From positions 1 through 30,198 of IMG/VR virus record IMGVR_UViG_3300005581_000082: a stretch of DNA of 30,198 bases. One strand, 5' to 3'. A program made the position numbers and the translations under genes. The notes beneath the pieces were generated by a model that was not told where the DNA came from, ran no database searches, and saw only the letters and a list, made by a program, of their open reading frames with translations. How positions within the stretch are numbered: position 1 is the first letter of the stretch; the number at the start of each line of letters is the position of its first letter. Source of the DNA: a virus. Positions 10,142 through 30,110 of this stretch are shown here, in pieces.

Positions 10142-11056
10142 TCAGGCTGCGTCTAAGAACAGGAGCTTCTGACGGAAAGCATCAGGGCTCATTTGGCTCA
10201 AATAACGCCAAGCTTGGTCAGGATTGCGATCCATAGCGGTCTTAAATCCTTCCCACTGCCCTTCAACGTTGTTACGAGGAGCTGAACTAGCGTTAGCAGG
10301 AACAGCAGGCATGTCGTAGCTAGGGCGATAAGCGCGGGAATCACCATACTCAGGCTCATCCACGGGATACACTTCGGTGAAGAAGCGATTTGTGTAATCA
10401 GCCAGTTGATCAGGATCAGTAAGAATATGCTCCATAGCGGCACCACGAACAGAAACCTGTTCTAAGCGCTCGTTTTGAGCAATCAGAGCATCTTCAAGAG
10501 TAACTGAGTACTGATTGAGAATGCCAGGAGCTTCAATACCGAAGTGATTAACTACTTGAGCGGTTACGTCGCTTAGTTCCACCTCTGGGGAGCTGACCGT
10601 AGAAGTCGGAGAGGAAGTTTGGGTCGTAAATCCGTTGTTGTAGGAGGTCGGCGCTGCCTGGGGTGCCTGATAAGCCCAGGGTTGGGCCTGTAAAGGCTGA
10701 CTGTACTGTTGAGTATCCTGTGCCGTTTGGTACTGCGGATACTGTGGTGCCTGGCTGGGGGACGGAGACATCCGTGATACCACCCGCTCCAGGCTGCCCA
10801 TCGCGGCTTCCCAAGGGTTGCTCGGGGAGGACGCTGACGGAAACTGGTTGTACTGGTTGCTGGTAGAAGGGGCCGTACCCTGTGTTGCCGGCGACTGCTG
10901 TTGGTGCGTAGGCGCCGAATACCCCTGGGGGGTACTGGTTTGGGCTACCCATTGGGGGTAGGCCGTAGAGCCCTGGTCCGCTGTTGGCGCCGCCGAAGGG
11001 GCCGCTACCGCCGGGGAGACCGGGCTCGGGATCGAAGCTTGGATCTGCTGGCTCAT
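10142..11056 (-). CDS. Probable scaffold protein, N-terminal half overlapping portal
   Basis: 304 residues if started at the ATG at 11056. Residues 1-168 are extremely rich in Pro, Gln, Ser, Thr and Tyr. Residues 169-304 are acidic and helical (TLEDALIAQNERLEQV, then DQLADYTNRFFTEVYPV) and end in a short helix (SPDAFRQKLLFLDAA). Position between portal and major capsid, disorder and acidity fit an assembly scaffold. The first 509 nt lie inside the portal gene in another frame. The ribosome binding site at 11056 is weak. An internal ATG at 10801 (GGGAAG just upstream) would give 219 residues and still overlap by 254 nt. The C-terminal half has no competing frame and is well supported. Scaffold function is inferred. 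Confidence 0.6.
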   Translation of the reverse strand: MSQQIQASIPSPVSPAVAAPSAAPTADQGSTAYPQWVAQTSTPQGYSAPTHQQQSPATQGTAPSTSNQYNQFPSASSPSNPWEAAMGSLERVVSRMSPSPSQAPQYPQYQTAQDTQQYSQPLQAQPWAYQAPQAAPTSYNNGFTTQTSSPTSTVSSPEVELSDVTAQVVNHFGIEAPGILNQYSVTLEDALIAQNERLEQVSVRGAAMEHILTDPDQLADYTNRFFTEVYPVDEPEYGDSRAYRPSYDMPAVPANASSAPRNNVEGQWEGFKTAMDRNPDQAWRYLSQMSPDAFRQKLLFLDAA

Positions 11057-12785
11057 AGCTGCCCGAGTAGGTTAGTTCTTGTGCGAGGTGGTCAAACGTC
11101 CTGTACAACAGGGGCGTTAGATTCAAACGAGGATCAGCACCCAAAGGCTGATTAGGCGCAAGTGGATGTGGCGTTTGCAACATCTGTGATAATAATACTA
11201 AAAATTGTTGAAACGCGCTTTGAGTTTGTTGAATCATTCTGAAAGGAAATCCTTTCAACATTTCTGAACGCTCAGAATCCGTCTTATCGGGGAACAAATA
11301 TTTCAACGCTTCGACGCTATCCACGCCGAGTTCTTGTAAGTTTCGTACAACAATTGACTTCTGATTTAAGTCGTACGCTGTGTCTTCATAGACATCACCT
11401 TGGAAACGATAGGTAACTTCTCGATCCCCATCCGCAGGCAGGCCGTAAACTCCAGGCGGAACAGTGTTGGTTTCTAAAGCCGTCTTAATCGCAATCTCAA
11501 CTTTTAATTTAAATTTCTTAACATCTACATCATATTTCTCAATCGATTCAGGCGTGGGCTTCTCCGGTATTTTTGGAGTTTTCATTCCTGTAACAGCTAC
11601 AAAGCTCTCACGGAAAATCTGCTCTTGATGATAAATAATCATTTCAAGCAACTTACAGAATCCGTAAGTTAAGAAACTTTTATTTTTACGAAGAGCCGTG
11701 GCTTGCGCTCGACCCATCAATCCTTTAATTTCTGTCGCGGTAGCGCCAGCAGAAACAGAAATTTCATCCACGCCGCCAAGAGCTGTTCTAATTTCCTCGC
11801 GTAAAAGCAACGCATACCTATTCATGTCCCCATTAACAGGGTCGGGGGTCATGTACCCCATACGATCTGAGGGCTCTACGTTTGCAATAATTCGAGGAAC
11901 TCGCAAACCTCCCATCAAAGAGCTGCCGCCAAAAGGTTCGCTAACTCGGGTAGAGGGAGTATCCCTACCAGCAAAACCACTCTGACTACTAATAGTGGGA
12001 CGGAACGTACGTTCAGCGTCGGAAGCTTCGATAAGGTCGCTACGTGGACGAGAGCTAATTAAGGTTGGGTTACCAAAGAATTCAATATTTTTTGCAATAT
12101 TCTGAATAAGAGAATCGTGTAAAACGATTTGTTCCGAGAAGGGACCGAACTCTCCTTCTCCTTCTGTACCACTAGAGTTCGGTTTGTTTAAAACTTCGAC
12201 AGCAGGAATAAACCCAAGCGTATTTTCTCTACTATTACTTGGCGTTAAAAGACCGGCTGGGTCTAGATCAAAGCTAAGCTCAGTATCCGTTTCTACTTCA
12301 GAAATTAGTTTGTCAGTAATGGATATGCGGACATACCTTTTATTTAATCCGGGTACATCTCCGGGCAGCCCTAAAGTAGAATTCCTTACTTTATAACTAT
12401 AAATAATTATAACTTCTTGAATACTTCCATTTACGTCGTGATAAACGCGATATTGATGTTTGTCAAAAAAGTAAATTTGATACTTTAACTTAGGATCGGG
12501 TCGAAAATAAAATAAGCCGCAACCGTCTATTAAAAAATTCCGAATAATCGACGGAAAGCGAATGTCTAATCTATTTAGAGCTATTAGATCTTGTAGAAAT
12601 TTGCCTCGACTGTTGTACGTGTCTTGTTCGCAATAAAAAAACAATCCTTTTTTTATCATCAACAGCACCATCTGCTGTAGATGACCGAGCACGACCAAAG
12701 TAGCCGACTGCTTCGATTGATCCTGGCTTCGGGCAGCCTCTAGGATTTCACTATATCTGCTTCTAATGCTGATTGGATCGGCCAT
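10548..12785 (-). CDS. Portal protein
   Basis: A 745-residue protein with the features of a phage portal. An N-terminal helical and beta region (residues about 1-200) includes RNFLIDGCGLFYFRPDPKL. A central part with LLLREEIRTALGGVDEI is followed by ATATEIKGLMGRAQATAL and a long helix (SFLTYGFCKLLEMIIYHQE, residues about 370-390), the portal clip/stem. Residues about 575-745 are a Pro/Gly/Gln-rich tail ending in a basic KRRNRSS segment, unusual for portals. This tail coincides almost exactly with the stretch where a second frame is open. It forms the dodecameric vertex through which DNA is packaged. The terminase lies about 3 kb upstream, with small genes and two glycosyltransferases between. 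Confidence 0.8.
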   Translation of the reverse strand: MADPISIRSRYSEILEAARSQDQSKQSATLVVLGHLQQMVLLMIKKGLFFYCEQDTYNSRGKFLQDLIALNRLDIRFPSIIRNFLIDGCGLFYFRPDPKLKYQIYFFDKHQYRVYHDVNGSIQEVIIIYSYKVRNSTLGLPGDVPGLNKRYVRISITDKLISEVETDTELSFDLDPAGLLTPSNSRENTLGFIPAVEVLNKPNSSGTEGEGEFGPFSEQIVLHDSLIQNIAKNIEFFGNPTLISSRPRSDLIEASDAERTFRPTISSQSGFAGRDTPSTRVSEPFGGSSLMGGLRVPRIIANVEPSDRMGYMTPDPVNGDMNRYALLLREEIRTALGGVDEISVSAGATATEIKGLMGRAQATALRKNKSFLTYGFCKLLEMIIYHQEQIFRESFVAVTGMKTPKIPEKPTPESIEKYDVDVKKFKLKVEIAIKTALETNTVPPGVYGLPADGDREVTYRFQGDVYEDTAYDLNQKSIVVRNLQELGVDSVEALKYLFPDKTDSERSEMLKGFPFRMIQQTQSAFQQFLVLLSQMLQTPHPLAPNQPLGADPRLNLTPLLYRTFDHLAQELTYSGSYEPADPSFDPEPGLPGGSGPFGGANSGPGLYGLPPMGSPNQYPPGVFGAYAPTAVAGNTGYGPFYQQPVQPVSVSVLPEQPLGSRDGQPGAGGITDVSVPQPGTTVSAVPNGTGYSTVQSAFTGPTLGLSGTPGSADLLQQRIYDPNFLSDFYGQLPRGGTKRRNRSSS

Positions 12786-28471: not shown

Positions 28472-28719
28472 AGTTCAGCTGAATCTAAAAAGGACTTTCG
28501 TCGACTCAATTCTACTGATAACTCAACCCACGCTGGCATTTTGCAAAAAATATTTGTGGCAATATAGTAACCCGAAAAATTTTTTTCTCAGTTTCCCTCG
28601 CGGATTGCTTTACTGTTCTCGCCCCACCCCCCGGAAAGGGCCTGTATATAAAAAAAAGGGACTATTTAGCATTGCGGGGAGTTGTACATTGCGATCACTG
28701 TCACGCGCGGGCGCCGCAC

Positions 28720-28807: not shown

Positions 28808-28862
28808 GAGCCTCAGAAGATTTGAACCTTTGTTACAATAGCTTGACAAGCCAACCGCCCCA
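28808..28862 (-). other. tRNA-like segment (3' half), possible attachment site
   Basis: On the minus strand this stretch can fold as an anticodon arm with loop TTGTCAA (anticodon GTC; 4 of 5 stem pairs) and a T-arm with GGTTCAAATC (4 of 5 pairs). A tRNA-like 3' tail follows, but no matching 5' acceptor strand or D-arm is present. It may be a decayed tRNA, or an attP-like copy of the 3' part of a host tRNA. No integrase is seen in the window. The -35 of a promoter candidate overlaps the anticodon loop, so the resemblance may also be chance. Confidence 0.25.
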
Positions 28863-28871
28863 TGGTATTTA
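28843..28871 (+). promoter_or_regulatory. Candidate promoter with perfect -35
   Basis: TTGACA (28843-28848) and TATTTA (28866-28871) are separated by 17 bp. The -35 is exact, but the -10 is weak. No gene follows within several hundred bases, so it could drive an RNA across the gene-poor region or be a chance match. Confidence 0.3.
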
Positions 28872-28890
28872 CGCGCGTGTGTGTGCGCGT
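28871..28890. repeat. Hairpin ACGCGC / GCGCGT
   Basis: Two perfectly complementary 6-base arms (28871-28876 and 28885-28890) enclose an alternating GT loop. The alternating purine-pyrimidine tract could also favour Z-form DNA. Confidence 0.6.
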
Positions 28891-28916
28891 TCATATATCT
28901 AGCTAAACGAACGGCA

Positions 28917-28961
28917 AACCTTAAGAGAATCCGTAGAGTAGAAACCTTAACCTAACCTTAA
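28917..28961. repeat. Three AACCTTAA direct repeats
   Basis: The octamer AACCTTAA occurs at 28917, 28943 and 28954. Spacing is uneven (26 and 11 bp). They may be short iteron-like protein-binding sites in the origin candidate. Confidence 0.45.
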
Positions 28962-29016
28962 CGACATGGGATCCGTTTGGCTTTACCTTTAGCTCATCGA
29001 ACCGAAAGGGCTCGAT

Positions 29017-29208
29017 CGAACCTAGACAATCGAATAGATCCAAGCCAAGCCGCGAACCGTTCGCGTTGCCTTGCCACGGGAGTTCCCGCCTTGCCGCAGC
29101 TATATGCTGTGAGATAAGGCCGAACCCTAGGACAGGCTTAGTGTAACTCTGCGAGAGCAGCTTGGATCCATTTGATTCTATGGTTTGCGAACCTAGACAA
29201 TCTAATAG
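29017..29208. repeat. Pair of 21-bp direct repeats
   Basis: CGAACCTAGACAATCGAATAG at 29017-29037 recurs at 29188-29208 with a single change (CGA to CTA). The copies are 171 bp apart and contain no coding sequence. Either a duplicated binding site or a remnant of larger duplication. Confidence 0.75.
29051..29065. repeat. Palindrome CGCGAACcGTTCGCG
   Basis: A perfect 7-bp inverted repeat around a single central base. It looks like an operator for a dimeric regulator or a small cruciform. CGGGA/TCCCG at 29077-29088 is a second small palindrome close by. Confidence 0.6.
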
Positions 29209-29289
29209 TTCTCCCGTTCTTAGATAGCTTGAACGGAAAGCCTACGGCTCGGGAGTTCTATTTACATAGCGTGGGCCTTTTAACTAAGC

Positions 29290-29307
29290 CAAACTGTGAA
29301 CAGTTTG
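29290..29307. repeat. Hairpin CAAACTGT-GA-ACAGTTTG
   Basis: Perfect 8-bp arms with a 2-base centre, within the gene-poor region. Symmetry of this kind usually marks a dimer-binding operator. No gene start is adjacent. Confidence 0.65.
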
Positions 29308-29406
29308 TATAGTTAACTCGGCGAATGGATGTTAACAGTAAGCAAGCTGAACTTAAGTAAGCCTGTGGAGATTGCCGCTGTTAACATTTAGGCTCACACC
29401 TTTTAA

Positions 29407-29433
29407 CTAACTAAGCTTAGCAACCTTAGTTAG
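29407..29433. repeat. Hairpin CTAACTAAG / CTTAGTTAG
   Basis: 9-bp perfect arms (29407-29415 and 29425-29433) around a 9-base loop. A shorter hairpin of the same sequence type (ACTAACT/AGTTAGT) lies at 29527-29543, so CTAACT-like words recur through this region. Confidence 0.6.
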
Positions 29434-29557
29434 GGTTCTTCATAACGAAACCTACAGTTCGTAACTGTAAATAGCCCACACCTTTAAGTTTACTTATCGC
29501 TAGTGTGGCAATTAAATACTTAAGACACTAACTTCTAGTTAGTTATAGTCTAGAGTA

Positions 29558-29588
29558 TTGAGTACCTGTCTATGCAGCAGGTACTCAA
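29558..29588. repeat. 11-bp hairpin TTGAGTACCTG / CAGGTACTCAA
   Basis: The longest perfect stem in the window: arms at 29558-29568 and 29578-29588 and a 9-base loop. No T-run follows, so it is not a terminator. It covers the start of the small gene remnant at 29572. Confidence 0.75.
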
Positions 29589-29685
29589 CCTGTTCACGTT
29601 CAGTCTCTCACTACATTGTTACATGCTAGATGGCGAGATTGGACACAGTGTGGACAGACTAACTCTAGGATCTATAACTAACTAG
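29572..29685 (+). pseudogene. Gene remnant sharing the C-terminus of the next gene
   Basis: An open frame of 37 codons from ATG at 29572 to TAG at 29685. Its last 14 residues (GHSVDRLTLGSITN) are nearly identical to the end of the 29721 gene (GHNVDRLTLGSITN), in the same frame, with the identical stop. The N-terminal part is unrelated. It looks like the 3' end of a duplicated gene whose 5' part was lost, or a duplicated C-terminal module. No ribosome binding site is seen. Confidence 0.5.
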
Positions 29686-29994
29686 GGTCATTGCCTACAG
29701 CGGAGATAGGCACCGCACACATGGAGAACACCGTGACCAACGCTACTAGGGCACAGTCGGCCACCAAGGCTTTTGACGCTATCCGGTTCTGGATGGATTC
29801 GGGCCACTCGCAGCTACTAAGCCGCAGGCAGGCCCTTAAAATCGCAGCATGGGGCCTGCAAATTGCTGGCTATAGCGAGCTGCAAACCCAAGTTCTCGTG
29901 GAGCTTATAAAGCTTCCTGATAACTTAGGCCGCACAACAGGAGATTCCGGACACAATGTGGACAGACTAACTCTAGGATCTATAACTAACTAGG
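29641..29994 (+). repeat. 46-bp direct repeats flanking a small gene
   Basis: 29641-29686 and 29949-29994 are the same sequence, with a single difference (G versus A at the eighth base). GAGATT also lies shortly before each copy. They are 308 bp apart start to start and enclose the small gene at 29721, whose final codons are in the second copy. Recombination between them would delete the gene. Confidence 0.9.
29721..29993 (+). CDS. Small protein of unknown function (90 aa)
   Basis: Read from the ATG at 29721; the open frame extends to a TTG at 29691, but ATG is more likely. The middle (RFWMDSGHSQLLSRRQALKI and AAWGLQIAGYSELQTQVLVE) forms two or three amphipathic helices with a basic patch, so a small helical DNA- or protein-binding protein is possible. 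Residues 76-90 are encoded by the 46-bp repeat. GC is higher than in the surrounding non-coding DNA, which supports coding. GGAG is upstream but at an unusually long distance. Confidence 0.5.
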   Translation: MENTVTNATRAQSATKAFDAIRFWMDSGHSQLLSRRQALKIAAWGLQIAGYSELQTQVLVELIKLPDNLGRTTGDSGHNVDRLTLGSITN

Positions 29995-30080
29995 TGATCT
30001 ATTAAACTTTCTGGCCTTATCTGTGGAGTAATCTATGGGTGGGGTCAGATTGTTTATACTTAACACTACCTTAGTTTAAG

Positions 30081-30110
30081 TTATGATCACTTTAGATCAT
30101 TATAGATCAT
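30081..30110 (+). promoter_or_regulatory. Three GATCA sites at 10-bp spacing with -10-like box
   Basis: GATCA occurs at 30085, 30095 and 30105, exactly 10 bp apart, so all face the same side of the helix; the flanks (TTA/TAGATCAT) are also similar. TATGAT at 30083-30088 is -10-like and overlaps the first site. The array sits about 85 bases before the gene that starts at 30194 and looks like a cooperative operator that could block the promoter. Confidence 0.5.

Follow-up and report, generated by a model that had tools for sequence, protein, structure and literature searches.

The window analysed here is the whole of a virus record of 30,198 bases (IMGVR_UViG_3300005581_000082) with an overall GC content of 43%. 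The nearest isolate-phage match of its terminase large subunit (TerL) is that of Synechococcus phage S-EIV1 (52% identity), and because of this the hosts of the window phage and its relatives are probably cyanobacteria. TerL relatives are encoded by 411 viral_contigs stretches, 80 of which were kept for further work. Among S-EIV1-like phages, one group has a large structured RNA that is flanked by a mostly minus-strand block containing the structural genes and, on its 3' side, by small plus-strand genes that are presumably early. Elsewhere in the window, a minus-strand open reading frame (ORF) of 304 codons (10142-11056) overlaps the 3' part of a portal-like gene (10548-12785) in another frame over about 500 bases. 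The protein encoded at 27836-28471 matches PHROG 3704, labelled 'ferredoxin'; its Pfam matches all lie below threshold, and the label is doubtful. The features near the right-hand end of the window are as follows.

28650-28659, plus strand: A8GG tract upstream of the RNA, kept in relatives
28843-28871, plus strand: candidate sigma70-like promoter of the RNA, TTGACA-17-TATTTA, read from the sequence
28875-29686, plus strand: body of a large structured RNA, about 0.8 kb long, its start placed by the promoter
29018-29037, plus strand: boxA-like motif 1, 16/20 to the picocyanobacterial rrn boxA, the highest score in the window with both strands considered
29189-29208, plus strand: boxA-like motif 2, 15/20, joint second on the plus strand
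29533-29687, plus strand: 3' domain of the RNA, with P1 (29535-29548 paired with 29672-29685) as its closing helix
29572-29685, plus strand: 37-codon ORF, taken as incidental inside the RNA domain
29641-29686, plus strand: repeat copy 1, the 3' strand of P1 plus neighbouring helices
29687-29994, plus strand: 308-bp insertion, 262 unique nt plus repeat copy 2
29721-29993, plus strand: 90-codon ORF in the insertion, with an alternative GTG start at 29733 and GGAG 6 nt before it
29949-29994, plus strand: repeat copy 2, continuous with conserved downstream sequence
30010-30049, plus strand: terminator-like hairpin from a computed scan, 18 pairs followed by TTGTTTAT
30060-30108, plus strand: candidate promoter for early genes, TTAACA-16-TATGAT; three GATC sites (30085, 30095, 30105) overlap it

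The 46-nt repeat noted in a preliminary description of this DNA is real. Its copies are identical at 45 of 46 positions with a start-to-start distance of 308, and allowing a 2-nt gap the likeness extends upstream to GAGATT(CC)GGACACA..., giving 52 aligned nt. The two ORFs are also as described there (37 codons, and 90 codons from ATG), both ending in SITN and a stop codon; the downstream one is alternatively listed with 100 codons from a TTG at 29691. Their shared frame adds little, since the chance of it is about one in three. Neither the frame of the 37-codon ORF nor its tail is kept in relatives. In three-frame translations of 22 other loci VDRLTLGSITN occurs only in the sister contig L002, with a stop codon directly before it, and the longest ATG ORF of L002 at the repeat site uses another frame (...GEIGQLSGQTNSRIYN). 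As judged from this comparison, the 37-codon ORF is incidental to the structured RNA in which it lies. The view of the repeat as a duplicated C-terminal module of a protein does not hold, because copy 1 is, on the comparative evidence given below, the 3' strand of the 14-bp closing helix in the 3' domain of the large RNA. Further copies of the repeat, for which the preliminary description had proposed a search, came to little: a 35-nt core is present at exactly two places in the window (100 shuffles gave no such core, even with up to 3 mismatches), and exact viral_contigs scans with the repeat and with the downstream flank added only L002, which is without the insert, records very near the window being possibly omitted.

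The segment 29520-29700 folds at -72.5 kcal/mol (z -6.8), and none of 200 shuffled sequences did as well. Homologues of the 3' domain were found in 23 other viral contigs. A two-arm pattern gave 21 viral_contigs loci, all of them homologues on inspection. A looser pattern gave 39 loci, 24 of them previously unseen, and on inspection L128 proved to be a homologue and the other 23 resembled chance matches; a covariance model added G008. Alignment A2 holds the 18 distinct among 22 sequences, L111, L112, L116 and L123 being omitted as identical to others in the 3' domain. Over these 18 sequences and 38 pairs, 94.7% of the cells are paired, and both sides have changed in 21 of the 38 pairs. The covariation score is 0.383, as compared to 0.168 +/- 0.013 in 500 shuffles, which related sequences may beat even without a structure, and to at most 0.087 when the partners were slid. 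Four of five structure measures lie above all 500 shuffles; for the fifth (further pair types), nine shuffles attained the same value. All five lie above the slid controls, a comparison that favours the structure, which was taken from the same alignment on which it is tested. In the closing helix 10 of the 14 pairs are invariant, which is uninformative on pairing and marks constrained sequence. G-U pairs are frequent (14 of 18 sequences at columns 57/65, 6 of 18 at columns 97/123), and this points to an RNA rather than a DNA cruciform. The 3' domain thereby displays what characterises the class of large structured phage RNAs, namely compensatory changes over many relatives.

Model R1 scores 113.3 bits on the window, which is itself among the sequences from which R1 was built, and it matches 9 of 49 records (47 TerL records, L002 and S-EIV1). 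Since it found no match in two long contigs (82 and 75 kb) or in the complete S-EIV1 genome, not every member of the group has the RNA; most of the other records missed are fragments. Weaker R1 matches on the opposite strand at the same places are due to the near-palindromic closing helix. In G020 a second, weak R1 match (23.9 bits; 12308-12455, L160) lies away from the main one. A DNA search of 50 of the 80 TerL records gave a match in eight. A blastn comparison of the RNA region with isolate phages gave no match, nor did one pattern scan of genome_contigs.

The RNA body as a whole has a minimum free energy of -272.8 kcal/mol (z -7.35, 20 shuffles), and the ORFs listed in 28875-29570 reach at most 46 codons. 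From about 28820 to its end the window is colinear with L002, apart from the 308 bp, absent there, and an indel of about 43 nt. The extra nucleotides of L002 (about 482-525, against about 29298 of the window) lie inside the RNA. Together with leader lengths that vary from 541 to 992 nt, they suggest that parts of the RNA come and go. TTGACA followed by TATTT, TATCT or TAATT before GCG, at similar spacing, is found in at least seven relatives (L002, L107, L118, L119, L120, L125 and L126); the TTGACA-17-TATTTA of the window was not listed by a consensus scan, the rule of which wants T as the last base of the second hexamer. Further upstream, A8G is present in 18 of 23 loci (the window and 22 relatives), 541-992 nt before the closing helix, and the five loci without it (L002, L107, L108, L111, L116) hold just 369-762 nt upstream. 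The A8GG tract is mostly trailed by a TTGCG-like stretch in relatives. In the domain between the two boxA-like motifs, 19 of 44 pairs have compensatory changes among 14 sequences, a count made with no control.

The boxA-like motifs were scored against the 20-mer GAACCTTGACAACTGCATAG, the reverse complement of which is listed in PMC9769826 as a primer for the picocyanobacterial antitermination boxA. For the cyanobacterial rRNA spacer, a passage of PMC8461337 gives GAACCTTGAAAA as boxA. Two copies of the motif GAACCTAGACAATCNAATAG were found among the direct repeats of the window. The score of motif 2 is equalled at an unrelated plus-strand place (1414), and the best minus-strand score is 14. 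Relatives reach 18/20 (L119, L121). The match was unequalled by 100 randomised sequences in 14 of 21 leaders and equalled by one or two of 100 in three more, L111 and L116 being too short for this test and near-identical pairs being retained in the boxA and distance counts. The RNA thus bears the likeness to the rrn boxA of the host group that marks a boxA- or Nus-dependent leader, with a weak match or none in four of the 21 leaders, where randomised sequences were as good in 89 (L108), 13 (L114), 9 (L124) and 7 (L110) of 100. ACCTnGAnAA, expected at most 0.02 times per leader, is present in 20 of 23 loci and twice in 15, the two lying 148-179 nt apart in 14 of the 15 and 100 nt apart in L121. 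A boxA-like motif is likewise part of bacterial rrn leaders and spacers, and the closing helix recalls the leader-trailer helices described in a passage of PMC10250234; the present RNA differs in that no rRNA follows, as judged from the absence of Rfam matches, and in its frequently doubled ACCTnGAnAA.

Motif 1 could also pair. Its predicted pairing with a segment just upstream of motif 2 covers the core, with covarying letters, in 11 of the 14 leaders examined; the longest pairing detected falls beside the core in the other three, namely the window, L002 and L110. Part of the boxA-like motif could therefore be conserved for its own pairing. Complementary segments adjoining motif 2 were seen by eye. 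In L115, L119 and L123 the segment before motif 2 could, again by eye, pair with either motif, only the pairing with motif 1 having been computed. Such either/or use of one segment would make the two pairings exclusive, a possible switch in these three loci.

Because conserved flanking sequence lies to the left of copy 1 and to the right of copy 2, the unit between them is an insertion. From the closing helix to the first GATC of a downstream run the distance amounts to 84-105 nt in 20 loci, to 95 nt in G008 and to 400 nt in the window, that is 92 + 308. The 308-bp unit is therefore absent from the corresponding site in all 21 checkable relatives (L119 and L128, which end before the GATC run, were left out), as the preliminary description had suggested looking for, and the insertion is confined to one contig among the loci that could be checked. 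That description had also named, as evidence against its own proposals, a single copy in all relatives together with absence of the second copy from reads; the first half of this, a single copy, is what the relatives show. An insert of this kind, with copy 1 left where it is, would not hide a relative from the two-arm pattern; an insert that displaced the 3' strand would. With P1 enforced, copy 2 is favoured over copy 1 as the pairing strand by 5.2 kcal/mol, a difference too small to decide.

The insert has 55% GC, the RNA 44%. The ORF in the insert has a GC3 of 0.605 versus 0.33 in phage genes; its frame is the best of six by phage codon usage, yet its score does not reach the 5th percentile for pieces of phage genes. 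This fits a candidate gene that was recently acquired and has another codon habit. Shuffles are open in that frame in 4.2% of cases, and because 70 of 831 such open shuffles score as high, coding is unproven. The ORF has no match in Pfam or PHROGs, and tblastn against phages gave a single match (E = 8). Peptide patterns matched 19 viral_contigs stretches and 60 in genome_contigs, none of which was confirmed as a homologue; a degenerate WGLQIAGY pattern gave one locus with likeness limited to those 8 residues. The ORF was found in none of 42 related records (40 TerL records, L002 and S-EIV1) in a search run without a positive control. With blastn against phages, the 262 unique nt gave one chance match of 24 nt (E = 0.9). 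An AlphaFold model made without an alignment has three helices and a pLDDT of 65, too weak for a fold search.

Downstream of the insert, the terminator scan by itself is no evidence, because such sites are no commoner in the region than in shuffles (2 versus 1.6 +/- 1.3). The hairpin and its T-rich tail are kept in L002, and the other relatives fold hairpins there mostly without a T-run. With the scan at shuffle level and most relatives without the T-run, placing the end of the RNA near 30010-30049 is a guess. Promoter-like sites number 6, versus 2.4 +/- 1.8 in shuffles. The GATC sites are 10-11 bp apart in general and 10 bp apart in the window, where there are three (30085-30108). The run stays at an almost constant distance from the RNA in all 21 relatives that could be checked; just two of the sites are in step in two of these relatives. 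Its position over a promoter-like site makes it a candidate operator or methylation-sensitive switch.

At gathering score Rfam has no match in the window, and with E values up to 10 there are 7, all far below gathering scores; in the loci of 8 relatives nothing was found except two tRNAs in L104. GOLLD and ROOL, large ornate RNAs of phages and prophages, often lie beside tRNA genes, and each forms a homo-oligomeric RNA cage. The window is without a tRNA, and in L104 the two tRNAs (715-874) stand about 2 kb before its RNA. In size and setting our RNA is similar to GOLLD and ROOL as they are presented in a part of PMC12286853, which ascribes no known function to these large phage RNAs; it differs from them in having boxA-like motifs and in the absence of an Rfam match, so that it does not belong to either family at the Rfam thresholds. 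CFrI, PhotoRC-II and wcaG, referred to in a section of PMC9602691 as antisense RNAs or cis-elements, are likewise noncoding RNAs of cyanophages, in their case T4-like ones, and Rfam gave no match for our RNA. We found no description of it in the literature searched on S-EIV1 and cyanophages, GOLLD and ROOL, cyanophage antitermination and cyanophage structured RNAs. The function suggested for it here is inferred.

With moderate confidence we explain the locus as a large phage RNA in the style of host rRNA that carries one lineage-specific insert at its 3' end. Very probably, as judged from the alignments, copy 1 is the resident RNA strand, copy 2 came with the insertion, the 37-codon ORF is incidental and the 90-codon ORF is a candidate foreign gene. 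The 308-bp insert would then have been placed directly after the RNA domain and before the terminator-like hairpin and the promoter-like site. It may have entered by recombination at the 3' end of the RNA with the closing strand kept intact, a step to which we give somewhat less than an even chance; recombination would have restored the closing strand, as with elements in the 3' ends of tRNAs. We are similarly tentative about the nascent transcript, which may be bound by host NusB/S10 (NusE) and be transcribed and folded in the manner of rRNA. Binding at the two boxA-like motifs is suggested by their match to the rrn boxA of the host group. Motif 1 would also close a domain by pairing with the segment just before motif 2. 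In E. coli, Nus factors at the rRNA boxA act mainly in folding, as stated in a passage of PMC5725501, and a part of PMC13289151 describes cyanobacteria as being without Rho. Taken together, a structured phage RNA with a host-like boxA could be made in the rRNA way, and the resulting RNA would be large and stable, with its end near the terminator-like hairpin.

A different use of the same motifs would be that the RNA is the leader of an early operon, with boxA loading host Nus factors, perhaps together with a phage protein, for read-through of the hairpin at 30010-30049. In its favour, the RNA lies directly upstream of the plus-strand small genes in relatives, it has two boxA-like motifs, and the hairpin stands between RNA and genes; we nevertheless regard it as rather unlikely, as a separate promoter-like site follows the hairpin. 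HK022 put is an antitermination site, and in a lambda-type nut site a boxB hairpin is bound by a phage N-like protein. A boxA in a phage transcript is shared with lambda nut as treated in part of PMC10250234, and the RNA is much longer and more structured than nut or put. The reported lack of Rho in cyanobacteria (PMC13289151, in part) and the chiefly folding role of the Nus complex at E. coli rRNA (PMC5725501, in part) also speak against a leader.

The insert could instead be a site-specific integration unit with an att-like core of 46-52 nt at the 3' end of the RNA, perhaps the remnant of a larger element; this, too, appears doubtful to us. Elements integrated in tRNA 3' ends have a copy of the RNA 3' end at both borders and leave the RNA whole. 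The same border copies and intact RNA are seen here, with an empty site in relatives as expected of an integrative element, and the composition is foreign; the unit differs in being 308 bp long, in its target, which is not a tRNA, and in having no integrase. The cassette enclosing a gene that had been proposed earlier stands in so far as the unit is missing in relatives; against it, the 308 bp contain no recombinase-sized gene, and no second occupied site was found among the 21 checkable relatives. Moreover, homologous or illegitimate recombination would be expected to leave the same trace.

An assembly chimera in the metagenome is improbable: the insert is seen in a single contig, and exact scans found only L002, which is without it, but the copies differ by one base and a 2-nt gap, and a repeat of 46 nt is shorter than the usual sequencing read. 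We think it equally improbable that the region acts as DNA, untranscribed, in the form of a replication origin, cruciform or operator cluster. The conserved A8GG tract, the GATC sites and the perfect inverted repeat would suit such a role; the frequent G-U pairs, the covariation of the inner helices and the orientation of the boxA motifs along the plus strand argue against it. The other earlier proposal, in which a gene was duplicated in tandem and one copy then decayed, is hardly credible despite the identical final codons, since only 46-52 nt are common, the rest of the unit shows no likeness to what precedes copy 1 (a local score of 19.0 against a mean of 18.8 for randomised sequences, 90 of 200 of which did as well), and copy 1 belongs to a conserved structured RNA whose relatives are without the unit.

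The reading we prefer, a large phage RNA made in the host-rRNA style with an insert at its 3' end, may extend to the phage group. In a widespread group, a giant RNA with two host-type rrn boxA motifs could form a unit that mimics rRNA, from which the rRNA transcription and folding complex of the cell would build a viral RNA machine, and the 3' end could serve as a landing site for cargo genes that leave the RNA unharmed, an extension that we put forward as speculative and less probable than the steps above. The insertion is a small example of cargo entering at the 3' end of an RNA with the RNA kept. A family of large phage RNAs with a host-like rRNA boxA would give a handle on these RNAs, namely NusB/S10 binding and dependence on the rRNA transcription complex, and it would also bear on the role of boxA in hosts without Rho.
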